From: Fodinibius salsisoli
Lineage (GTDB): Bacteria > Bacteroidota > Rhodothermia > Balneolales > Balneolaceae
DNA: 64,000 nt
Reading direction: 5' to 3'
Assembly: GCF_026229185.1 (NCBI RefSeq)
Contig: NZ_JAGGJA010000004.1
Location: forward strand, 307,852 to 371,851
The position numbers and the translations under genes were made by a program. Positions 45,388-56,580 of the stretch are shown piece by piece. Under the pieces are notes generated by a model, which did no database searches, was not told the origin of the DNA, and was given only the letters and a program-made list of their open reading frames with translations. The number at the start of each line of letters is the position of its first letter. Position 1 is the stretch's first letter.

Positions 45388-45813
45388 ATGGGACAGCAAC
45401 AACTATTACTCGTAATTCTTGTTACTATCATCGTAGGAGTCGCAACCGTCGTAGCCATCAACATTTTCGGCCAAAGTGCCGCAAATGCTAATATTGATGC
45501 TACGCGTCAGGATGTGTTAACCTTGGCTGCACAAATGCAAGGTTATGCACTTAAGCCCGAACTGATGGGCGGCGGTGGCGGTGACTTCGTCGATTTAACT
45601 GTTGATAAGTTGGGTTTTGGCTATGACTCAGACAACAGTACAAGTGGTGTTGATTTTGTAAATGCTAATGCGCATTTCGTAATTGATCCTGCTACTGGCG
45701 GTATCACAGCTACGCCGGTCAGAATAGATGGATCCACTGATTGGACTACAGAAGATTTTGTAGCCACAGTAACTATGGACGATATCACATTTGACACTGT
45801 ACCAGCCAAATAA
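45388..45813 (+). CDS. Type IV pilin-like major subunit, very short leader, no Glu5
   Basis: A 141-residue protein whose first 28 residues are a hydrophobic pilin-like helix directly after Met-Gly (MGQQQLLLVILVTIIVGVAT). If cut after Gly2 the mature protein starts with Gln and has Leu, not Glu, at position 5. The remainder has a glycine run (GGGGG near residue 62) and a small beta-rich domain. It is the first gene of the pilus locus, has its own sigma-54-like promoter and is followed by a hairpin, as expected for a subunit made in excess. Identity as pilin is inferred from the helix and the context. Confidence 0.72.
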   Translation: MGQQQLLLVILVTIIVGVATVVAINIFGQSAANANIDATRQDVLTLAAQMQGYALKPELMGGGGGDFVDLTVDKLGFGYDSDNSTSGVDFVNANAHFVIDPATGGITATPVRIDGSTDWTTEDFVATVTMDDITFDTVPAK

Positions 45814-45885
45814 AAGTAACCAATCCAAAGGTTTAGCAAAAAGCTTTGCATATACTGAAGATTGGTAAGAAATAAAATTCGAGTA

Positions 45886-45914
45886 AGGAGGGGCTGGTAT
45901 CAGTAGCCCTTCCT
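45886..45914 (+). terminator. Hairpin between pilin and pilC-like genes
   Basis: AGGAGGGGCT / AGCCCTTCCT form a 10-bp stem with one G-U pair around a 9-base loop. No T-run follows, so it is likely an attenuator or RNA-stabilising element that separates pilin expression from the downstream machinery genes. Confidence 0.45.
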
Positions 45915-45966
45915 GATCGAATCCAAGGGTACAAATAGGGTAATAAAAAATAAATCATCTACTATT

Positions 45967-47304
45967 ATGGCTCGCTTCAGATTCAAGGGACGGACGAATA
46001 ATAATAAATTAGTTCAGGCGGAATTCGATTCACCGAGCAAACGTGAGGCCAAACAGAAAGTAAATAAATTGGCCCGGGCTAAAAGTATTAATGTTTCTAC
46101 CGTCGAAAAGAAATCACTTTATAAATTCAAGGTACAGCGAAACGGCTCTGCAGTTATACAGGGAGAACAGGAGGCGTTCAACAAGGAAGAGCTAAGCAAA
46201 GCACTCAGCAAGCTGGGGTATAAGGTTCTTAGCGTAAAAAAGAAATTATTTCAATTTAAAGGGCTTGTTTCATCTTCGGAGGTGGTTACCTTTATACGGC
46301 TGTCGGCGGATTTGCTGCGCCAGGAGCTTCCCTACAGCGAGATTTTGACGCTGCTCTATGAAGATACGACCAACAAGCGCCTTAAAGAGGTGATTCGGCA
46401 GATTCAGAAGGACCTGCAGGATGGCAAAGAGGGATACGAAGTCTACGGTAAGCATGAAGACATCTTTGGCAAGTTTGGCGCCCATATGCTGGGGATTGCT
46501 TCTACCAGCGGTAATATGGCCGAAGTGTTCGAAAGTACGGCTAAATTTATGGAGAGAGACAGTGCCTTTAAGAAAAGTTTGCGGCGCGCCTTGATGATGC
46601 CCTCCATCGCATTAGTGGCCGTCATGGGGGTCATTCTGTTTTATGTGGGATATATTTTCCCGCTGATGGCTGAGATGTTTTTAAAGTATGATATCGTCTT
46701 GCCGCCGATGACTGCTGCCACGCTTGAAATGAGTTACTTCATGCAGGATCACTGGTTAGCCATCACCCTGATATTTACCGTGCCTATAGTAGCTTTTCTC
46801 TATTACATACAGACGAACAAAGGCCGGTATATGCTGGATAAATACATCATACGCATACCGGTCATTGGGGATCTGCTGCACAAAATGAGTATAGAAATCT
46901 TTGCCCGGGTTTTTTACACACTCTACAGCGATTCCGGGCAAAATGTGGAGGTTATCAAAACGGCATCGGAGGCCTGTCGTAACGTCTATATGGAGCGACA
47001 GATAAAAGACATCGCGATCAAGAAGATGCTTATGGACGGTACCGGACTGGTGGATGCGCTGACCGCATCCGGGGTCTTTACCCGTCCGGCCCTGAGTCGA
47101 TTTAAGCTGGGGGCGGAATCGGGATCGGTAAGGGAAAATGCCGAGCAACTGGCGGATTATTACGAGGTGCAAACCGAGTACAAGCTTGCGGCAACGGTAG
47201 AAATGATTACGGTATTTGTCAACATCATTATTGCTATTGCCTTGACAGCTATCACGATCGTTTCATCCGAGGCGGCTCTTATTCAGCCTAATATTGAAGT
47301 ATAG
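45967..47304 (+). CDS. Type IV pilus/T2SS platform protein, PilC/GspF-like
   Basis: A 445-residue inner-membrane platform protein. Two GspF domains lie at about residues 98-230 and 290-420, with three hydrophobic segments (about 210-232, 258-280, 415-438). The N-terminus is unusual: two successive beta-alpha-beta units (RFKGRTNNNKLVQAEFDSPS... and YKFKVQRNGSAVIQGEQEAF...KLGYKVLSVKK) resemble each other. They look like a duplicated version of the single small N-terminal domain of PilC/GspF. It organises the assembly ATPase under the pilus base. Confidence 0.9.
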   Translation: MARFRFKGRTNNNKLVQAEFDSPSKREAKQKVNKLARAKSINVSTVEKKSLYKFKVQRNGSAVIQGEQEAFNKEELSKALSKLGYKVLSVKKKLFQFKGLVSSSEVVTFIRLSADLLRQELPYSEILTLLYEDTTNKRLKEVIRQIQKDLQDGKEGYEVYGKHEDIFGKFGAHMLGIASTSGNMAEVFESTAKFMERDSAFKKSLRRALMMPSIALVAVMGVILFYVGYIFPLMAEMFLKYDIVLPPMTAATLEMSYFMQDHWLAITLIFTVPIVAFLYYIQTNKGRYMLDKYIIRIPVIGDLLHKMSIEIFARVFYTLYSDSGQNVEVIKTASEACRNVYMERQIKDIAIKKMLMDGTGLVDALTASGVFTRPALSRFKLGAESGSVRENAEQLADYYEVQTEYKLAATVEMITVFVNIIIAIALTAITIVSSEAALIQPNIEV

Positions 47305-47340
47305 CAGCAAATAAATTTAACATCTAAAAGTGAGATTAAG

Positions 47341-49122
47341 ATGGGGAAAGTACAGACACACCGGCATATCGGAGAAATGATGCAAGAGAATGGCATTATT
47401 ACCCAGGAGCAGCTGGACAAAGCACGCCAGATCCAGGCTTCAGGGGTGGATATGTCGACCCGAAAATTTGCACAAATACTGCAGGACCAGCTGGATGTGG
47501 ATCGCCATCTTGTACTGAAATCGATTGCCGATATTTTTGGGATCAAAGAATTTCGGATGCTGGAAGGAGAAGCCGGGGAGCAGCAGCTCCAGGAAATCAA
47601 GGATCTGCTTGAGGAATTGACGGAGGAGGTGACCAATGATTTTATCGATCAAAGCGCCTTGCCGATATCCCGACAAAATCAGAAGCTTGTTATTCTTACG
47701 GCTGATCCCACGAATCCACGTATTACTGACTTGGCTGGTGAGTTGTCGGCCAACCATTTTGAGCTGGTCTATTGCGAGCGAGGCACGCTTCGAACGTTGA
47801 TAGAACAGGTGCTTTATAAGCAGAATAACATCCTTGAGCAGCTTAATGATGTAGAAATCGAAGAGCCTGAGATTAATGAGAAGGCCGACGAAATAAAAGA
47901 AGAAGAGCTGGATGCTGAAATTAACCAGAGCATGCTCAACAAGCTGGTTGAAGGGATGCTGGTAGAAGCAGTCCGGCGTGGTGCCAGTGATGTGCATGTG
48001 ATCCCGACGGGCAACAGGTCGACGGATATACGGTTCCGTATTGACGGGAAGCTTCAGCTTTGGCACCAGCAGGAGAAAGTGAAGCCGGAAGCTATAGTGG
48101 CGGTCGTAAAAGATAAGACGAAAAATGTGGATCGTTTTGAACGGGACAGTTCCCAGGACGGCTTCATTCAGCGAAAAATTGATAACGTCAATATCCGGTT
48201 TCGGGTTTCCATCATGCCGATCGTCGGCACTGAATTCAACCGTAAGTTTGAATCGGTAGTAATCAGGATCCTGGACGACCGAAAAGTAATTACCGACTTA
48301 AATAAGTTGGGCTTGCAGAGTAATGCGCTGCATCTTTTCAGGAAAGCGATCAATAAACCGTCGGGTATCGTGATTATAACGGGTCCCACAGGTAGCGGGA
48401 AGTCCACGAGCCTGATTGCCGCGCTGCACCATGTCATGGATCCTTCCAAAAATGTATTGACGGTTGAAGATCCGACGGAGTACATCATCAAGGGAGCGCG
48501 ACAGCTGAAGATCAACAGCCACATGACGTTCGATATGTCGATGCGAGGAATTCTGCGGCACGATCCGGACATTGTGCTGGTGGGAGAAATTCGTGACCTG
48601 AACACAGCAGAAATTGCGATCAAGTTGGCCAATACCGGGCACTTGACCTTTTCAACGTTGCATACCAACGATGCTCCAAGTGCCGTATCGAGGCTGTATA
48701 AAATGGGGGTCGAACCGTTTCTGATTGCAAATGCGGTAAACCTGATTATGGCCCAGCGGCTGGTGCGTAAGCTGTGCGACCATTGTAAGATCGAGGACAC
48801 TGATCTCCATCCAGAACTGGCTCGGGGCATCGGCTTCACGGATGAAGAAATTGCGGAGTCAACGTTTTATAAAGCCCGGGAGCTGGGGTGTGACCATTGT
48901 ATCAATGGTTATAAGGGACGGGCCGCTATTATTGAAGCGCTCTATTTCACCAAGGAGATTCGCAACCTCATTCTGGATGCAGGGGCCAATATTGATGAAG
49001 AAGAAATTCGCAGTTATGCCATCAAAAACGGCATGATGAGTTTGAGAGCATCGGGCAGAGAGCGTGTCAAAGAAGGGCTTACTTCCATTGAGGAAATCCT
49101 GGCCATGACGGTCGAAGACTAA
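47341..49122 (+). CDS. Pilus/T2SS assembly ATPase, PilB/GspE-like
   Basis: A 593-residue ATPase. An N-terminal GspE_N (MshEN-like) domain begins RHIGEMMQENGIITQEQLDKA. The RecA-like core has Walker A GPTGSGKS (348-355), Asp box TVEDPTEY, Walker B DIVLVGEIRD and His box STLHTNDAPSA. The zinc motif has its four cysteines at 479, 482, 517 and 520. All catalytic residues are present, so it should power pilin extraction and assembly. It lies 36 bp after pilC. Its antisense frames are shadows. Confidence 0.93.
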   Translation: MGKVQTHRHIGEMMQENGIITQEQLDKARQIQASGVDMSTRKFAQILQDQLDVDRHLVLKSIADIFGIKEFRMLEGEAGEQQLQEIKDLLEELTEEVTNDFIDQSALPISRQNQKLVILTADPTNPRITDLAGELSANHFELVYCERGTLRTLIEQVLYKQNNILEQLNDVEIEEPEINEKADEIKEEELDAEINQSMLNKLVEGMLVEAVRRGASDVHVIPTGNRSTDIRFRIDGKLQLWHQQEKVKPEAIVAVVKDKTKNVDRFERDSSQDGFIQRKIDNVNIRFRVSIMPIVGTEFNRKFESVVIRILDDRKVITDLNKLGLQSNALHLFRKAINKPSGIVIITGPTGSGKSTSLIAALHHVMDPSKNVLTVEDPTEYIIKGARQLKINSHMTFDMSMRGILRHDPDIVLVGEIRDLNTAEIAIKLANTGHLTFSTLHTNDAPSAVSRLYKMGVEPFLIANAVNLIMAQRLVRKLCDHCKIEDTDLHPELARGIGFTDEEIAESTFYKARELGCDHCINGYKGRAAIIEALYFTKEIRNLILDAGANIDEEEIRSYAIKNGMMSLRASGRERVKEGLTSIEEILAMTVED

Positions 49123-49144
49123 CAAAATTAAATGGAGATCAATC

Positions 49145-49618
49145 ATGGTTGATACATCTGACTTTATACTGCTGATAGCCGCATTATTTATCTTTGCGAT
49201 GCTGCAACTGGGCTTGAACAGCGTGTTGTTGAACAACAGCAAAGTGATGGTACGGACCGAGCTGGATTATACCGCGGTGGCACTGGCACAAAACATGGCT
49301 GATGAGTCGAGAAGAAAAGCCTTTGATGAAAATGAGGGAATTTCATTGAGCGTGCCGGGCGATTTTTCATCAACACTGGGGCCGGAAGTTGGCGAAAGCT
49401 ACCCGGATTTTAACGATTTTGACGACTACCATAACTATTCACGGACGGATACCACGGAGCACGGAGTTTATGAAATACAGTGTACCGTTGACTATGTGAG
49501 CACCAGTAATTTAAAAGAGCCTTCAGCCGTAAAGACACCATATAAACGACTGCTGGTGGAAGTAGTTTCTGAAACAAAGGATACGGTAGCGGTTACCTAT
49601 ATCAAACCATATTACTAA
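49145..49618 (+). CDS. Pseudopilin-like membrane-anchored protein 1
   Basis: A 157-residue protein with a single N-terminal hydrophobic helix (about residues 7-27, FILLIAALFIFAMLQLG) and a soluble C-terminal domain ending IKPYY. There is no classical prepilin cleavage motif (Gly before the helix plus Glu5). Its place between the ATPase and two more proteins of the same architecture suggests a minor pseudopilin that primes the pilus. No family is recognised with certainty. Confidence 0.6.
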   Translation: MVDTSDFILLIAALFIFAMLQLGLNSVLLNNSKVMVRTELDYTAVALAQNMADESRRKAFDENEGISLSVPGDFSSTLGPEVGESYPDFNDFDDYHNYSRTDTTEHGVYEIQCTVDYVSTSNLKEPSAVKTPYKRLLVEVVSETKDTVAVTYIKPYY

Positions 49619-49691
49619 GAATCATTTTAAGTGCCTCTTGAAGGGGGTAATTAAAGTTGGCGGCAATTAATAATAAAAAAGAGAGGTCATT

Positions 49692-50240
49692 ATGAATTTA
49701 TCACTTATATCCGGTTTTGTGATTGGCAGCATACTTCTGCTGTCATTGGTGAAGGTTAATCTAAACCTGGTGGAGACCTCCGTGGATTCCATGAATGACC
49801 ATGTGGCGAAGATTAATGTTGATAATATCGTACCTCTTGTCAGTCATGACTTTAGGAAGATAGGGTATGGTAGGGCCGGTACCAGTGTATCGGAGATAAC
49901 CGCAACTAAAATCACCTTCCAATGGGATTTGGACCGAGATGGCACTTCAGAGGTCGTATCCTGGGAGTGGGATCAAACCCAGCCGGTGACAGAGACGCCC
50001 AACAACAACCAGGACTATGTACTGAAAAGAACCATAAATGGAGTGACTACTGAAATTAAGCAGGGGGTCATAAAATTTGAACTATCCTATTATAATGAGC
50101 AAAACGTACCTACGACTGTTCTGGATGAGGTGCGAAAGGTAAAGGTAACGCTGGTCTGTGAGAGTGCGGAACCTATGGCCGGTAAATATATGAGGGCTGC
50201 CTGGAATAAAACATTTATGCCATTGAGCATAGTAAATTAA
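49692..50240 (+). CDS. Pseudopilin-like protein 2 (GspJ/PilW-like position)
   Basis: A 182-residue protein with an N-terminal hydrophobic helix (LISGFVIGSILLLSLVKV, residues 5-22). The long amphipathic continuation and a beta-rich domain (TKITFQWDLDRDG, VSWEWDQ, GVIKFELSYYNEQ, VKVTLVCES) recall PilW/GspJ minor pseudopilins. No Gly-Glu prepilin motif is evident, since the leader is only a few residues. It is 73 bp after pseudopilin 1 and 30 bp before the PilX-like gene. Confidence 0.6.
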   Translation: MNLSLISGFVIGSILLLSLVKVNLNLVETSVDSMNDHVAKINVDNIVPLVSHDFRKIGYGRAGTSVSEITATKITFQWDLDRDGTSEVVSWEWDQTQPVTETPNNNQDYVLKRTINGVTTEIKQGVIKFELSYYNEQNVPTTVLDEVRKVKVTLVCESAEPMAGKYMRAAWNKTFMPLSIVN

Positions 50241-50270
50241 TAGTCATTAAAGAAAAAAGAGAGGATTAAA

Positions 50271-51347
50271 ATGGGAAGGCCACTGATTATAGTATGTGCA
50301 ATAACAATAGTAGTACTAGGAGTTATACAGATCAATCTTAACGACCGGCAAGTAGCCCTTGCAGAGCGCACCTCCTCGTATGCTAATGAAGCTGAAATGA
50401 TAAACATGGCGCATGCCGGAGCAGAATTTACGCTTAACAGGCTGCGCAGCGATACGGACTGGAGAAATGGATACGCTGAGTATGAGGTTCCACTGGATTA
50501 CGGTACCGCTTATGTGTTGATCGAGGATAAAAGTATAGACGCTTCCCTGGCAGATGACCAGTTACGCCTCAAATCACGGGTCCCGTTGCAGGGAGAAGAA
50601 GTCAAGGTTGATTATCTGGTGGAAGTACAAACCGCTCAAATTCCCAACATTCCGGGCGCCCTGGCGCTGACGGATCCAAATTTTACAACCATGCTGGGCG
50701 GGTCTTTTTACATAAATGGGATAGATGAGAGCGGAGTAGATACTGAAGGTTTGCCCGGTATTACGGTCATCGACCAGGCAAGCAAGGATCAAATTATTGA
50801 TGAGAATAAATATCAACATCTTGATCAGATTGATGGAAACACCAGCACAGGCGAAGATCCCAGTATTGTCGTGGATCCAACCATGGATTTTGCCCCATTG
50901 TCAGAACTGATTGAAGCGCTTGCGCCAAGTGCTACCCGGTTAAGTGGTGGGCCTTACAGCACAGATGATCTTGGCACTGAATCAAACCCCGGCGTCTTCA
51001 TGATTGAGGATTATGCCACAATCAAGGGGAATACCACGGGCTATGGAATCATGATTGTCAGGGAAAATGCAGACCTCGATGTAGAAACGACCCTGGACGT
51101 AGCAGGAACATTCGATTTTCACGGCTTGGTATTATTTGAAAATTCTTGGGCCTTAGACGGCCAGGGAAATGTGACTTTTCACGGCACGACGGTGGTGGGC
51201 TCAACGGTAGAAAATCCGCCCACAACAACCATTGATTTAACGGGAAACATAACTATTCAGTATAACAGTCAATCGCTGGATTTTGCGCGAAGTGCTGCGC
51301 AGAAGGCTATCGCGGCTAATTTTAACATACTGGACATCTACGAATAA
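50271..51347 (+). CDS. PilX/GspK-like minor pilin-like protein
   Basis: A 358-residue protein beginning Met-Gly, then a hydrophobic helix (PLIIVCAITIVVLGVIQI). The segment AEMINMAHAGAEFTLNRLRSD is characteristic of PilX/GspK-type N-terminal helices. The large C-terminal part (GYGIMIVRENADLDVETTLDVAG, FHGLVLFENSWALDGQGNVTF, then a TVVGSTV segment) is repetitive beta-helix-like, as in PilX-like proteins of delta-proteobacteria. It would cap the pilus tip complex. Confidence 0.65.
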   Translation: MGRPLIIVCAITIVVLGVIQINLNDRQVALAERTSSYANEAEMINMAHAGAEFTLNRLRSDTDWRNGYAEYEVPLDYGTAYVLIEDKSIDASLADDQLRLKSRVPLQGEEVKVDYLVEVQTAQIPNIPGALALTDPNFTTMLGGSFYINGIDESGVDTEGLPGITVIDQASKDQIIDENKYQHLDQIDGNTSTGEDPSIVVDPTMDFAPLSELIEALAPSATRLSGGPYSTDDLGTESNPGVFMIEDYATIKGNTTGYGIMIVRENADLDVETTLDVAGTFDFHGLVLFENSWALDGQGNVTFHGTTVVGSTVENPPTTTIDLTGNITIQYNSQSLDFARSAAQKAIAANFNILDIYE

Positions 51348-51403
51348 TAAAAAGAGAAGAGTATCTACAGGCAAACAATAAAATAAAAGAGATAAAAAAT
51401 ATC

Positions 51404-52684
51404 ATGGAAATTTACATTGACGATCAACCCAGTTTAGCAGAAGTATCTGCCATGATTCGACCACTGACTGAGCGGCTGTCACCCATGCTTAGCGGAACGG
51501 CACACCATGAGGAAATGATCGGTCTCATCGAAGAGCAAACCGAAGAGTGGCAGTTGAAAATGAAGCAGTTCATAGAGTATTACCTCCATCAAATGAAAGA
51601 GATGGAGGCCTCCGATATTGATATGGGGGGACCCGGCTGCGTCGGTCAAATTTGGTTTCGTATCCACGGCTACAAAAAGCCGATCGCGGGCGATGCCAAA
51701 CTGACCCCCGTGGAAACCGATATCCTATTGCTCAACCTGTTGCTGCCCCGCCAAAGGAAGATATTATTTGAAGAGCGGAATTTTGACTTTTCCTATACCA
51801 TGGATACGGATGAAGGTCTAGACCAGCGATTTCGGGCAGATATTTATTACGATATGGATCACCTGGCGTTAAATATGCGGCGTATCGATAATGAAATTCG
51901 TCCGTTCAAAGGATTAGAATTGCATCCCGAAGTGTCCAGGGCGGTCAGCCTCAAATACTACCAGTACGGATTGACCCTGGTAACCGGTATTACCGGTTCC
52001 GGTAAGTCGAGTACGCTGGATACCATTATCGATGCCAATAACCGAAGCATGGAAGCGCATGTGGTGATTATTGCTTCCCCGGTAGAATTGGTGCACAAAC
52101 CGATTCGCTCCATCATCCGCCACCGAGAAGTAGGTCGTGATGTTGCATCCTTTAAAGAGGGTGCGGTTCAGGCGCTTCGACAAGACCCTGATATCATCGT
52201 CATTGGAGAACTTCGTGATCCGGAAACCATTCAAACGGCGCTTGAAATTACGGACTCCGGTCACAAAACCTTTGGTACGCTGCATACGTCTTCGGCTATG
52301 GAGAGTATCGATCGTATTATCGGGGAAATTCCGGTTGATGAGCAAAACCGGGTACGGATGAGGCTGGCCGATGTATTGACTTGTGTGATCAGCCAGAAGC
52401 TGATCCCCAGCCTGGATGGTAAACGAGTACTGGCCAAAGAAGTGCTGCTGGTAACGCCTTCAGTCAAAGCAGCAATCCGCAATAACAATATAGGAGAGAT
52501 TTACCAGATGCTTATGGAAGGCGGAAAGATGGGAATGCATACGATGGAACAGGATTTAAAGAGGCTCTGCGATCAAGGTAAAATATCCAAAGAGATGGCC
52601 TTGAACAATTCAAACAATAAAAAACGAATGGAGAAACTGCTTAATCCTTCTGCAGTGGATAAATTAAACACAATGGTGGGGTAA
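51404..52684 (+). CDS. PilT-like retraction ATPase with an altered Asp box
   Basis: A 426-residue hexameric ATPase of the PilT/PilU group. Walker A is GITGSGKS (195-202), Walker B DIIVIGELRD (263-272) and the His box TFGTLHTSSAMESIDRI. AIRNNNIGEIYQMLMEGG near 365 is the PilT C-terminal signature. The Asp box normally reads EDPIE, but here it is Ala224-Ser225-Pro-Val-Glu, so the Asp is lost. The N-terminal 130 residues are longer than in PilT (about 345 residues in total for that family) and have no recognised domain. It could be a weak or regulatory (PilU-like) motor. Confidence 0.88.
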   Translation: MEIYIDDQPSLAEVSAMIRPLTERLSPMLSGTAHHEEMIGLIEEQTEEWQLKMKQFIEYYLHQMKEMEASDIDMGGPGCVGQIWFRIHGYKKPIAGDAKLTPVETDILLLNLLLPRQRKILFEERNFDFSYTMDTDEGLDQRFRADIYYDMDHLALNMRRIDNEIRPFKGLELHPEVSRAVSLKYYQYGLTLVTGITGSGKSSTLDTIIDANNRSMEAHVVIIASPVELVHKPIRSIIRHREVGRDVASFKEGAVQALRQDPDIIVIGELRDPETIQTALEITDSGHKTFGTLHTSSAMESIDRIIGEIPVDEQNRVRMRLADVLTCVISQKLIPSLDGKRVLAKEVLLVTPSVKAAIRNNNIGEIYQMLMEGGKMGMHTMEQDLKRLCDQGKISKEMALNNSNNKKRMEKLLNPSAVDKLNTMVG

Positions 52685-52688
52685 CATT

Positions 52689-54338
52689 ATGGGTACAAAA
52701 GAATACATTGGACTGTCACTGGACGGGGATCTGCTTAAGATTGCCCGAATACGTAAAAAGAAAAAGAGATGGACGCTAACACATTTGGACCGGGTGGAAC
52801 TTAAGGTTTCCGTCGATAAGGAACGGCACGACAACCGGTCTAAGGAAATGGCGAAAGAGTATGATGAGGATTTTCATTTTGGGATTGATCATCACTATGA
52901 TGAAGAATCTCAGTCAGCTGAAGATTTAAGTCGCCTGTTGAATGCAGATAAGGAAACCAATGGATCGAATAACGATTCCTTTCATGGCAATGTATTGCTG
53001 CTGAAAGAGGCACTGGAAGATATTAGTACTAAGAAGGTCAATATTGGTACCGTAATACGACCGGGAGATACCAACATCCAGGTGCTGAAGGATAAAAATT
53101 ACGGGGAATTAAAGAGTAAGGATCTGCAGGCCCAAATTGAAAGTCACCTAAAGAAGGTATACGGATACCTTCCGGACAGTGACCGGTACACCTACAGCAT
53201 ACGCAAGGACGGCTCCCTGTTATTGTTTTCCAATATAGAAGAATCATATTTGTTGAAAGTGTTGGAAGATACAAGGCAGGTATATTCGGGCAAAATCAAG
53301 CATCTGCAGATGCTGCCCGATGAGACGATCCTTGCAACCCTGGTTAACAAAACCTATGACCTTGATGCCGAGGAGATAACCTGTGTCATTCACCAGGCAT
53401 ATAACCGCAGCCGGGTGTTTTTTATGAAGGGCAATCAAATACTGCAGGTTATTCCCCCCGTTGAAGAGGGGCGGAATTCATCAAACGTGCTGCCGGTTAT
53501 CTTTAGCAAGATGCTTTTTCAGCTCGAGACGGGGGAAATTTCCGGGCTCGACCGTATTATTCTCACGAATAATGACTTTCATGAAGCTTCGGTGAACTAT
53601 TTCAAACGACAGTTTTCGGATGTAAAAGTGGAAGAATTTACTTTTGCCCCGGCACATATAGAAATACCGGAGCATCTCAAAAGCGTATCCGGATTTTTCA
53701 CCTCGGCCATCGGTATGGCATGGGCTACGGCAGAGCCTAAAGACGCTGAATTTTCGGATTATTCGTTACTACCAGCTGACATACGGGAGCGACAGAATAC
53801 CTTAAAGCTTCGTTGGCACGGGTACCTGATGATCTTCCTGCTCTTAATAACGCCGTTGGTATGGAACTACCTGTACCAGGGGAAACAGCAGCAGATAACC
53901 GACCTGAATAATGAGCTTTTTCATACTGACATCAAGATTATGAATCTTGAACCAGTGGTTGCAGAGGCCAATGAAATTCAGCGTTTATACAATGCAGAGC
54001 AGACCAAACTGGAGCTACTCAGCGATTTGTCCACGGGGACCGACTACTGGAGTCAAAACCTGAAAACGTTGAATGACGGACTTGCCAACATACGCAGGGT
54101 TTGGATCAACAGCTACAAATACGTTGACGATGGCTACCTGATGCAGGGATACAGCATGAGCCGTGAGCGTATACCAATGGTCACGAACTTATTTAAACGG
54201 GCTGATTTGCAGGCGGTAACTGTAGTCGAAATGAGAGACCTACGGCTCTATAAATTTTCGATCAAGGTTTACTACAACTTTACAGACGACTTGGGCGGAA
54301 AGGAAGATAATCCACCCAAAAATAATACAGACAACTAA
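52689..54338 (+). CDS. PilM-PilN-like fusion protein
   Basis: A 549-residue protein combining two pilus alignment components. The N-terminal part begins EYIGLSLDGDLLKIARI, an actin-like ATPase opening as in PilM, with a charged insert (about residues 40-100). One membrane segment at about 378-396 (YLMIFLLLITPLVWNYLY) is followed by a coiled coil and a periplasmic domain (NIRRVWINSYKYVDDGYLMQ...FSIKVYYNF) as in PilN. In most bacteria these are separate adjacent genes. It lies 4 bp after the PilT-like gene. Confidence 0.72.
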   Translation: MGTKEYIGLSLDGDLLKIARIRKKKKRWTLTHLDRVELKVSVDKERHDNRSKEMAKEYDEDFHFGIDHHYDEESQSAEDLSRLLNADKETNGSNNDSFHGNVLLLKEALEDISTKKVNIGTVIRPGDTNIQVLKDKNYGELKSKDLQAQIESHLKKVYGYLPDSDRYTYSIRKDGSLLLFSNIEESYLLKVLEDTRQVYSGKIKHLQMLPDETILATLVNKTYDLDAEEITCVIHQAYNRSRVFFMKGNQILQVIPPVEEGRNSSNVLPVIFSKMLFQLETGEISGLDRIILTNNDFHEASVNYFKRQFSDVKVEEFTFAPAHIEIPEHLKSVSGFFTSAIGMAWATAEPKDAEFSDYSLLPADIRERQNTLKLRWHGYLMIFLLLITPLVWNYLYQGKQQQITDLNNELFHTDIKIMNLEPVVAEANEIQRLYNAEQTKLELLSDLSTGTDYWSQNLKTLNDGLANIRRVWINSYKYVDDGYLMQGYSMSRERIPMVTNLFKRADLQAVTVVEMRDLRLYKFSIKVYYNFTDDLGGKEDNPPKNNTDN

Positions 54339-54355
54339 AAAAAGAGGGTACAAAA

Positions 54356-55201
54356 GTGACTTACGCAATAAGAAATACACTCATCATACTCGGAGTTTGG
54401 CTGGTGATTGCAGGCGCGGGGTGGGCGCGATTCTACCTTGTTGAAGATGCGGAGATAAACCGTTTGGAAGAGCAGTTAGCTCCCAAGAAAGTTACTCTGC
54501 AGGAGCATCAAACAATTGCCAATAACTACGAGCAGCTTAGGAAGAAATACGAGGAACTAAAGGCCGAGGTAGACGATAATGCCAAGGTACTGGTAAGAGC
54601 AAGAGATGCCGACGAGGTGTACAGCAATTTGATAGCACTAAGCGCAGACAGTGCGTTTACCTATTTCAATTTCATTGCTACCGATTCGACACACTACGAT
54701 AATTTCGGCTTGCTGAAATTTGATGTCAGCGGCGAAGGCTACTACCGAAATTTTAACAAGTTTATAAACCGGCTGGAGTACGGAAGGTCTTTGTTTAAGG
54801 TCAGAGATTTGACTATAGAGCCGATCACGAACCTGGAACACCTGGGTAAGGTGCACTTCAGCTTTAAGCTGCAAAGCCTGTTTGATCGGGATTCTCTATA
54901 CCAAGAGTACCCTACACAGCCGAAGGCTAAGATGCCGGTTTATACCTACAACTCATTTTATCCCCTGATACATGATGTGGAGGAAAATGAAGAGGGCTTG
55001 CCGGATGTGGAAAACAGTGAGCTGGTAAGTGTAGCAGAAGACTTTGTCTCATTAAGAGATCAAAACGACAACATAAAATACATCTACAAAGGAGACCGGG
55101 TTTACCTGGGTAAACTGATTTCAGTTGATACAGTGAATAAGTCGGCGACCTTCAGATTAAATAAAGGCGGAATAATAAAATACATTACACGGGGGCTATA
55201 A
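54356..55201 (+). CDS. PilO-PilP-like fusion protein
   Basis: A 281-residue protein with a GTG start. It has an N-terminal membrane anchor (TLIILGVWLVIAGAGW), a coiled coil (about 35-75) and a ferredoxin-like domain as in PilO. From about residue 195 an extra proline-rich linker leads to a small beta-domain (NIKYIYKGDRVYLGKLISVD...GGIIKYI) like the HR/PilP domain that docks on the secretin. The fusion reading is by architecture and gene order; sequence similarity is weak. It is 17 bp after the PilMN-like gene and ends 2 bp before the secretin. Confidence 0.65.
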   Translation: MTYAIRNTLIILGVWLVIAGAGWARFYLVEDAEINRLEEQLAPKKVTLQEHQTIANNYEQLRKKYEELKAEVDDNAKVLVRARDADEVYSNLIALSADSAFTYFNFIATDSTHYDNFGLLKFDVSGEGYYRNFNKFINRLEYGRSLFKVRDLTIEPITNLEHLGKVHFSFKLQSLFDRDSLYQEYPTQPKAKMPVYTYNSFYPLIHDVEENEEGLPDVENSELVSVAEDFVSLRDQNDNIKYIYKGDRVYLGKLISVDTVNKSATFRLNKGGIIKYITRGL

Positions 55202-55203
55202 TA

Positions 55204-56580
55204 ATGAATAGGTTAGATATCACAACTACAGCGTACAGATGGTTAATAGCAGGGCTTGTCATGCCAGTGTTGATCTTGGCAGGAACGGCCGGGGCACAGG
55301 TGAATAACGAGCTGGAACGGGAATACATAAGCCCGAAGGAGTTGGTCAGTTTAAGCAAAAATATGATGTTCGATGAAGCCGTCGACTTGCTTAATGAGTA
55401 TGCACAGCAATACTCGGGCCGATTTATCGTGGACCGGACCAATACGACCGAGGAAATCGGCATTCCGATTAACAATCGGTATTGGAAAGAAGTACTGCAG
55501 TATATGGCCGATGTAAAAGGCTTGCAGGTGGTTGAGACCCCCCGCTTTTTAGAGATCATTGAGGGAGAGCAAACAGGGGCCACTGAGGGAAAGAGGACAG
55601 GCAAACAAGAAATCTTAAAAGAAATAGACTTTAGCAGCCGCGAGGTACGTATTAAAGCTATTTTCTTTGAGGGAAATAAGCGTGCACTCCGTGAAATCGG
55701 GGTGGACTGGAGCACGATTCATAATTTGACGTCGCGTCCGGAAGGGTTAAGTGAGGTTCTTAACCCCAGCTCAGGCGGATCCGGCGGCGGTGGCGGAGGC
55801 CGTGGTGGTGGCAACCAAACACTGCCTGATCTGGATTTCGGTAACGAATACGTCGAAATTAATACCGGGGCTGCACAACAGGTTACGGAGAACCTGTTCA
55901 ATGGTGTTCTTAATTTAGGAGAGATCGCCGGCAGTGGTATCGAAGTGCGTGCCTTATTTAAAGCTTTCGAAGCCAATGACCTGGGTAAGATTTTGGCGAC
56001 ACCCGAAATTAAAGTGCTTGACGGCGAGGAGGGCCGGATTCAGGTCGGCCAGGATTTCTCGATCAAACAGCGGGACTTTGCCGGCAACGTGATTGATAAG
56101 TTCTTTAGTGTGGGTACCATCCTTACCGTAACCCCTCATATAATTCACCACGGAGACTCCACCTTCATCGATATGGTGATTAATGCGGAACGCTCGACGG
56201 CAGCTCCCAGCGTAGTAAGTACGGTTATCAACAAGCAGCAGGCAGATTCTGAGATCCTGTTGCTGGATGGAGAGTCCAGCGTTATTGCCGGGCTATACCG
56301 AACGGAGAATACCGAGATTCGCAAGGGCGTTCCATTGCTGAAAGATTTGCCAAAATGGTTCTTCGGCCTGCGTTACCTCTTCGGCTATAATTCAACCGAA
56401 CGGATCGAACAGGAACTGGTCATTCTTATTAAGGCCAGCATTGAGCCTACGCTTGCAGAACGACGCAACGGACGTTTGAAAAGCACCCAGGAACTTTTGA
56501 AGGAAAAACGATCAAGCTTCCAGGAAGATCGCGAAACCTACAAAGAAATGACCAAAAAAGGGGACGAACAGGAACAATAA
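55204..56580 (+). CDS. Secretin, PilQ/GspD-like
   Basis: A 458-residue outer-membrane secretin with a signal peptide (cut near Ala-Gly-Ala-Gln, about residue 32). A small STN/N0-like domain (about 60-120: FDEAVDLLNEYAQQYSGRFIV) is followed by a central region with a glycine run at about 190-200. The C-terminal secretin domain (about 255-430) has LATPEIKVLDGEEGRIQVG, TLTVTPHI-type ILTVTPHIIHHGDSTFIDM and IAGLYRTENTEIRKGVPLLKD. Only one N-domain is visible, so it is shorter than PilQ or GspD. A charged C-terminal tail may recruit a pilotin. It is the last gene of the locus, followed by a terminator. Confidence 0.9.
   Translation: MNRLDITTTAYRWLIAGLVMPVLILAGTAGAQVNNELEREYISPKELVSLSKNMMFDEAVDLLNEYAQQYSGRFIVDRTNTTEEIGIPINNRYWKEVLQYMADVKGLQVVETPRFLEIIEGEQTGATEGKRTGKQEILKEIDFSSREVRIKAIFFEGNKRALREIGVDWSTIHNLTSRPEGLSEVLNPSSGGSGGGGGGRGGGNQTLPDLDFGNEYVEINTGAAQQVTENLFNGVLNLGEIAGSGIEVRALFKAFEANDLGKILATPEIKVLDGEEGRIQVGQDFSIKQRDFAGNVIDKFFSVGTILTVTPHIIHHGDSTFIDMVINAERSTAAPSVVSTVINKQQADSEILLLDGESSVIAGLYRTENTEIRKGVPLLKDLPKWFFGLRYLFGYNSTERIEQELVILIKASIEPTLAERRNGRLKSTQELLKEKRSSFQEDRETYKEMTKKGDEQEQ

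Follow-up and report, generated by a model that had tools for sequence, protein, structure and literature searches.

A cluster of ten genes at 45388-56580 of the analysed stretch of Fodinibius salsisoli DNA (64 kb in all, hereafter the window) probably encodes a complete and retractile pilus machine, derived from the type IVa pilus (T4aP), whose pilins would be made directly in their mature form. As far as its genes tell, the system is like T4aP in its machinery, without two defining features of such pili, the prepilin leader and the prepilin peptidase. Reviews take the class III signal peptide as what defines type IV pilins and count the prepilin peptidase among the conserved machinery proteins (PMC4471445), and the peptidase was described as a key component of the whole superfamily (Denise et al., 2019; PMC6668835). 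No description of leaderless pilins, or of the MGQQQ motif with which the major pilin begins, was found in the open-licence literature, and a paywalled or preprint account is possible.

The cluster and its machine components

All ten ORFs are intact, lie on the + strand and are spaced almost head to tail in a genome of 98% completeness. They are arranged as major pilin, PilC, PilB, three minor pilins, PilT, PilM-PilN fusion, PilO fusion and secretin:

45388..45813, +, putative major pilin (PilA-like), leaderless, with MGQQQLLL start; no alternative start, pilin fold in a model, conserved position in relatives
45967..47304, +, PilC/GspF inner-membrane platform, long form of 445 aa; T2SSF 1.8e-27
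47341..49122, +, PilB extension ATPase with MshEN domain; T2SSE 5.4e-104, MshEN 6e-7
49145..49618, +, putative minor pilin 1 (PilV/GspI-like), without leader motif; weak PilV match (0.031), conserved position
49692..50240, +, putative minor pilin 2 (PilW/GspJ-like), without leader motif; weak match (0.015) to a prepilin-peptidase-dependent protein
50271..51347, +, putative minor pilin 3 (PilX/GspK-like), with MGR start; assigned from its place in the cluster and its N-terminal pattern
51404..52684, +, PilT-like retraction ATPase with altered Asp box; PilT family, 310 bits
52689..54338, +, PilM-PilN fusion (P0008); PilN by profile, PilM by fold
54356..55201, +, PilO with a C-terminal domain of about 90 residues (P0009); PilO by profile, PilP-like by position only
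55204..56580, +, outer-membrane secretin (PilQ-like) with one N-domain (P0010); Secretin 8e-31

The cluster is flanked by a gene for an M48 peptidase upstream and one for adenylosuccinate lyase downstream. A search for a riboswitch upstream of pilA gave no Rfam match within the 64-kb window. No conserved flanking genes were evident near the cluster, the exception being a cyclic-nucleotide-binding gene inside it in relatives (see below), and the other frames common to the relatives' loci are mostly antisense to the pilus genes. Positions 1-22000 of the window have a GC of about 0.39 versus 0.45 and carry exopolysaccharide-type genes (DegT aminotransferase, Polysacc_synt_2 and Wzz/tyrosine kinase).

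The core of the type IV filament superfamily, that is a PilB-family ATPase, a T2SSF platform and pilins of type IV fold, is present. PilC is the sole T2SSF protein in the source genome. Besides the T2SSE and MshEN domains, PilB matched the PilB model (1.7e-132) and the PilB structure 6olj (2.6e-101), and its Walker A, Walker B, Asp box, His box and zinc cysteines are kept in 39/39 sequences. In some relatives of the same class PilB contains a large extra region, reaching 1127-1161 aa (L058:8812-12297, L062:9340-12723). The second ATPase matched the PilT/PilU family (1.5e-92, with 310 bits where the cut-off is 319) and PilT 2ewv (1.3e-69). Its Walker A, Walker B Glu and His box are intact, and the Glu of TIEDP in the Asp box is replaced by Ala, Gly or Ser in 39/39 (TIEDPIEY to IIASPVEL), so that pilus retraction, which we infer from the gene content, may be weak or absent.

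With regard to the alignment subunits, a profile of 35 PilMN proteins matched Myxococcus PilN (3jc8) with E 2.3e-12 over positions 377-502. Residues 4-363 of the AF2 model of P0008 (pLDDT 81) resembled PilM (5eou, Z 23.7; 2ych, 23.5; 3jc8, 22.9) above the non-PilM folds (FtsA, Z 20.1 and below; cyto-EpsL, 14.9). Such a fusion has precedent, since GspL has the same architecture. In P0009, PilO was recognised by Pfam (1.6e-4) and by profile against PilO of 3jc8 (1.3e-5). The C-terminal residues, about 90 in number and conserved (VYLGxLxxID...ATFxLNKGGI), gave no match to PilP or any other solved domain, and thus an identity as PilP was not established. The secretin P0010 has PilQ (3e-25) and GspD (1e-19) as its top matches, and a single, weakly recognisable N-domain (PilQ N-domain 4ar0, 6e-4) ahead of the secretin domain. 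The sequence-only reading had described a compact type IV pilus or T2SS-like machine with fused alignment subunits, which is correct, and its ten genes in one direction, including pilin, platform, two ATPases and three pseudopilin-like proteins, are borne out by ORF coordinates and profiles. Its PilM-PilN fusion and single-N-domain secretin agree with the matches above, and of its PilO-PilP-like fusion the PilO half stands while the PilP half does not.

The features of T4aP are thus found here as a PilT-type ATPase, PilM and PilN in one protein, PilO and a PilQ-type secretin. The two systems have PilB, PilC, PilT, PilM, PilN, PilO, secretin, pilin fold and minor pilins in common. They differ in that the MGQQQ system has no class III leader, Glu5 or prepilin peptidase, has PilM fused to PilN and PilO fused to a domain unrecognisable as PilP, and has divergent PilT and PilC clades. 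The T2SS criteria, no PilT and a cytoplasmic domain of the GspL type, do not describe it, as PilT is present and the PilM fold scores well above EpsL. It is therefore unlikely that the cluster builds a T2SS-like pseudopilus for protein secretion and not a surface pilus, although the minor pilins are similar to the GspI/J/K set, the PilM-PilN fusion is similar to GspL in architecture and a related, peptidase-bearing Cytophaga cluster was named T2SS and affects cellulose use (PMC5553014). PilT occurs in every examined cluster of relatives, the cytoplasmic part is PilM-like (Z 23.7) over GspL-like (14.9), secretin and ATPase matched PilQ and PilB best, and a homologue of GspC was not recognised. 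Moreover, the Cytophaga cluster belongs to another class, with A24 and a short PilC.

The latter cluster, CHU_3191-3201 of Cytophaga hutchinsonii, encodes a Peptidase_A24 (CHU_3197) (PMC5553014), and was placed with T4aP by Denise et al. (2019; PMC6668835). It shares with the MGQQQ system the phylum-level group, a secretin, an ATPase, a platform and PilM/N/O-like genes. On the other hand, its class has A24, a PilC of about 375 aa, prepilins with leader and Glu5, and a separate PilC clade.

The major and minor pilins

The four pilin-like proteins, searched singly against Pfam and NCBIfam, gave no convincing match to a pilin model. A profile of the major pilin searched against the PDB had type IV pilins as its top five matches, all of them weak (0.013 to 0.19), and the AF2 model (pLDDT 89) predicts a long helix at residues 2-55 followed by a beta sheet. 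In the VIA-align ranking of this model, type IV pilins fill rows 1-23, with Z from 7.7 down to 5.0, before the first unrelated row at Z 4.2; a Z below 8 is modest by itself, but an unbroken run of one family is not. Foldseek on its own gave a pilin match with E of only 0.24. The profile and fold matches rule out that these proteins are unrelated to pilins, despite the lack of a single-sequence match. Profile and model agree on a register in which residue 4 is residue 1 of the mature pilin, Leu8 occupies the position of Glu5, Gly17 corresponds to Gly14 and Phe27 to Phe24; MGQ therefore makes three extra residues.

The class III prepilin leader and Glu5, a feature of type IV filaments, are absent in the major pilin. 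An in-frame stop lies 4 codons upstream of the ATG of MGQQQLLL, with no other start. Among MGQQQ pilins in general, an in-frame ATG, GTG or TTG is found upstream in only 6 of 191 distinct proteins, a stop lies within 5 codons upstream in 124/189, and GGAG stretches resembling the Shine-Dalgarno sequence are common upstream of the ATG. A wrong start codon that hides a leader is ruled out by these stops and by the rarity of upstream starts. Residues 3-5 are Gln in 188/188 MGQQQ pilins, as the search pattern itself fixes MGQQQLLL; independent of it are the upstream stops, the absence of D, E, K and R from residues 1-20 (n=188), and the syntenic major pilins found by homology, of which 50/50 begin with MGQQQ or MAQQQ (the latter once) and so have Gly or Ala as residue 2. 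That the pilin is encoded without a leader is close to certain.

Similarly, the class III motif was not found in the families of minor pilin 1 (n=15) and minor pilin 2 (n=14). The family of minor pilin 3 has a conserved MG start in 14/15 members and two matches to the motif, which fall inside the hydrophobic helix or beyond it. Between pilB and pilT, most Balneolaceae have a cyclic-nucleotide-binding protein instead of the three minor pilins. Its domain was recognised by Pfam (8e-11) at L036:8383-8886, and this gene or a related one is found between pilB and pilT at 22 loci (L036-L057), hinting at second-messenger control of the pilus. Several of the far relatives (L063-L071) have no minor pilins in the interval from pilB to pilT, and many of them show a tandem array of two or three major pilins upstream of pilC.

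Prepilin peptidases in the source genome and its relatives

The superfamily feature of an A24 peptidase in the genome, dedicated or shared, is missing. The source genome gave no Peptidase_A24 (PF01478) match at E<=10, while 12/14 control genomes were positive, and none at E<=1 with a phylum-tuned profile of 19 FCB peptidases, which detected only two clear peptidases among 39 genomes. N_methyl prepilins (PF07963) were not found in the source genome either; this model was positive in 4/39 genomes, two of them being the peptidase genomes. The sequence-only reading had noticed that the peptidase was missing from the cluster, which extends to the whole genome by the two profiles, and had overlooked that the pilins are without class III leader and Glu5. 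A peptidase encoded elsewhere is ruled out in the source genome (two profiles) and in most relatives. Because the major and minor pilins lack the class III leader and Glu5, the absence of the peptidase belongs to the system itself and is not just a matter of a gene located elsewhere.

To compare the phylum, we used 198 genomes, each at least 90% complete. MGQQQ pilins were found in 73 of them, against 0 for a reversed-pattern control, and T2SSF in 73/73 of these. A24 was absent in 65 of the 73, versus present in 21 of the 28 T2SSF genomes without MGQQQ (Fisher p about 1e-9, only indicative since related genomes were counted as independent). Nine of the 65 A24-free genomes are single-contig assemblies (G031, G041, G067, G107, G153, G161, G207, G216 and G219). 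A negative HMM result is not absolute, because some Bacteroidota have a divergent A24, and in 7 T2SSF genomes without MGQQQ the peptidase scored below threshold. Among 50 named genomes picked for MGQQQ, many of them MAGs without known completeness, 38 were without A24 and 12 with it.

In the eight of the 73 MGQQQ genomes with A24, the peptidase mostly serves a second system. Where both occur, A24 is usually encoded within or close to a separate system, whose PilC has about 350-410 aa and whose prepilins have leader and Glu5. Such a second system, with prepilins like GFTLPELLIVLVIIGI and the other PilC clade, was found in a congener (G009), in G016, G057, G146 and in others. Examples of its prepilins are MKWIQSIKKEEGFTLPELLIVLVIIGIL at locus L222 of the congener and EDGFSLTELLIVLAIIGIL at locus L216. 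The congener combines two MGQQQ clusters with one peptidase-bearing system, which makes three type IV filament systems in its genome (L034, L039 and L222). MSH loci also have no prepilin peptidase gene, and their genomes use that of another system (PMC6668835). The MSHA and MGQQQ loci are alike in this, whereas most MGQQQ genomes (65/73) are without any A24 and their pilins have no leader to cut.

Another explanation is that pilin processing does take place, MGQ being a three-residue leader cut before Gln4, and that the enzyme is either an unrecognised protease or a highly divergent prepilin peptidase encoded elsewhere. The register sets Gln4 at the canonical +1 position, A24 is strongly divergent in some Bacteroidota, and the invariance of MGQQQ implies that something must read it. 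We nevertheless consider this quite unlikely, as known leaders have 6-26 residues (PMC4471445), no Gly precedes the cut at -1, A24 is absent by two profiles in the source genome and by the Pfam model in the nine single-contig genomes, and ordinary leaders and Glu5 are retained in A24 systems within the phylum and even within the same genome. Trimming of the pilin N-terminus by some other protease could occur.

Distribution and proposed assembly

The order pilA-pilC-pilB-(minor pilins)-pilT-pilMN-pilOP-secretin is kept in 38 of 39 relatives' loci, from the same genus to other classes, the exception being the peptidase-class locus L069. It is conserved in Balneolia, Rhodothermia, Ignavibacteria, Kryptonia, Calditrichota, KSB1, Neomarinimicrobiota and others, nearly all of the FCB group. 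The pattern MGQQQLLLxxL, searched for in 84,980 species genomes, matched at least 118 loci. Names among the matches listed are Balneolia, Rhodothermia, Salinibacter, Ignavibacteria, Kryptonia, Melioribacter, Calditrichota, KSB1, Neomarinimicrobiota, Zixibacteria and Cloacimonadota, together with plain 'Bacteroidetes' or 'bacterium', and another cluster gene lies on 74 of the 118 listed loci (loci of at most 8 kb). Only two names among the matches listed are outside the FCB group, both metagenome bins (L177, Deltaproteobacteria; L187, Desulfobacteraceae); the latter is likely mis-binned, because its pilin N-terminus is that of a Neomarinimicrobiota bin (L106). The genome paper of Melioribacter roseus (2013) reported pilT, Q, B and C and did not find pilA and pilD. 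At a locus labelled with this species (L169), pilC, pilB, pilT, pilMN and pilOP are preceded by two MGQQQ pilins. The suggestion of a lineage-specific pilus or secretion system is refuted by the same cluster across much of the FCB superphylum. The earlier reading also hung on the genes being linked in relatives, and they stay linked across many families, so that the cluster is not due to chance.

Each machine component examined by tree forms one clade in the MGQQQ system (PilC 100/100, PilT 100/100, PilB 86/97). The PilC clade is apart from A24-class PilC and from GspF and HofC of E. coli, and the branches leading to the clades are long (3.3 changes per column for PilT and 3.1 for PilC). The trees do not fix the root or the wider placement, and several of their reference rows sit on long branches. 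A decaying or non-assembling relic, which the missing peptidase and the altered Asp box of PilT might suggest, is very improbable in view of the ten intact ORFs, the strict N-terminal conservation across several phylum-level lineages, PilB with its intact Walker motifs and the single clade per component.

We consider it fairly likely that this is an ancient, FCB-wide clade of type IV pili without prepilin processing, with leaderless pilins, maturation by Met aminopeptidase at most and a Glu5-independent, triple-glutamine N-terminal contact. In this assembly, the pilins would be inserted N-in/C-out via the first helix, and Met aminopeptidase may take off Met1, residue 2 being Gly or Ala, to leave Gly-Gln-Gln-Gln two residues ahead of the canonical mature start. 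The invariant glutamines would substitute for the contact between Glu5 and the N-terminal amine in subunit docking. Filament extension would be driven by PilB via the PilC platform, retraction may be the task of PilT with its changed Asp box, and the PilM-PilN and PilO fusions would couple the motor to the short secretin. The MGQQQ clade may have done away with prepilin processing, which is obligatory elsewhere.

Finally, MGQQQLLL is a sequence signature with which pili can be found in Balneolota, Ignavibacteria, Calditrichota and their relatives. If our explanation is true, leader cleavage and Glu5 would be dispensable in pilus assembly, which bears on how subunits exit the membrane and dock, and the leaderless system would be a natural test of what PilD is for.
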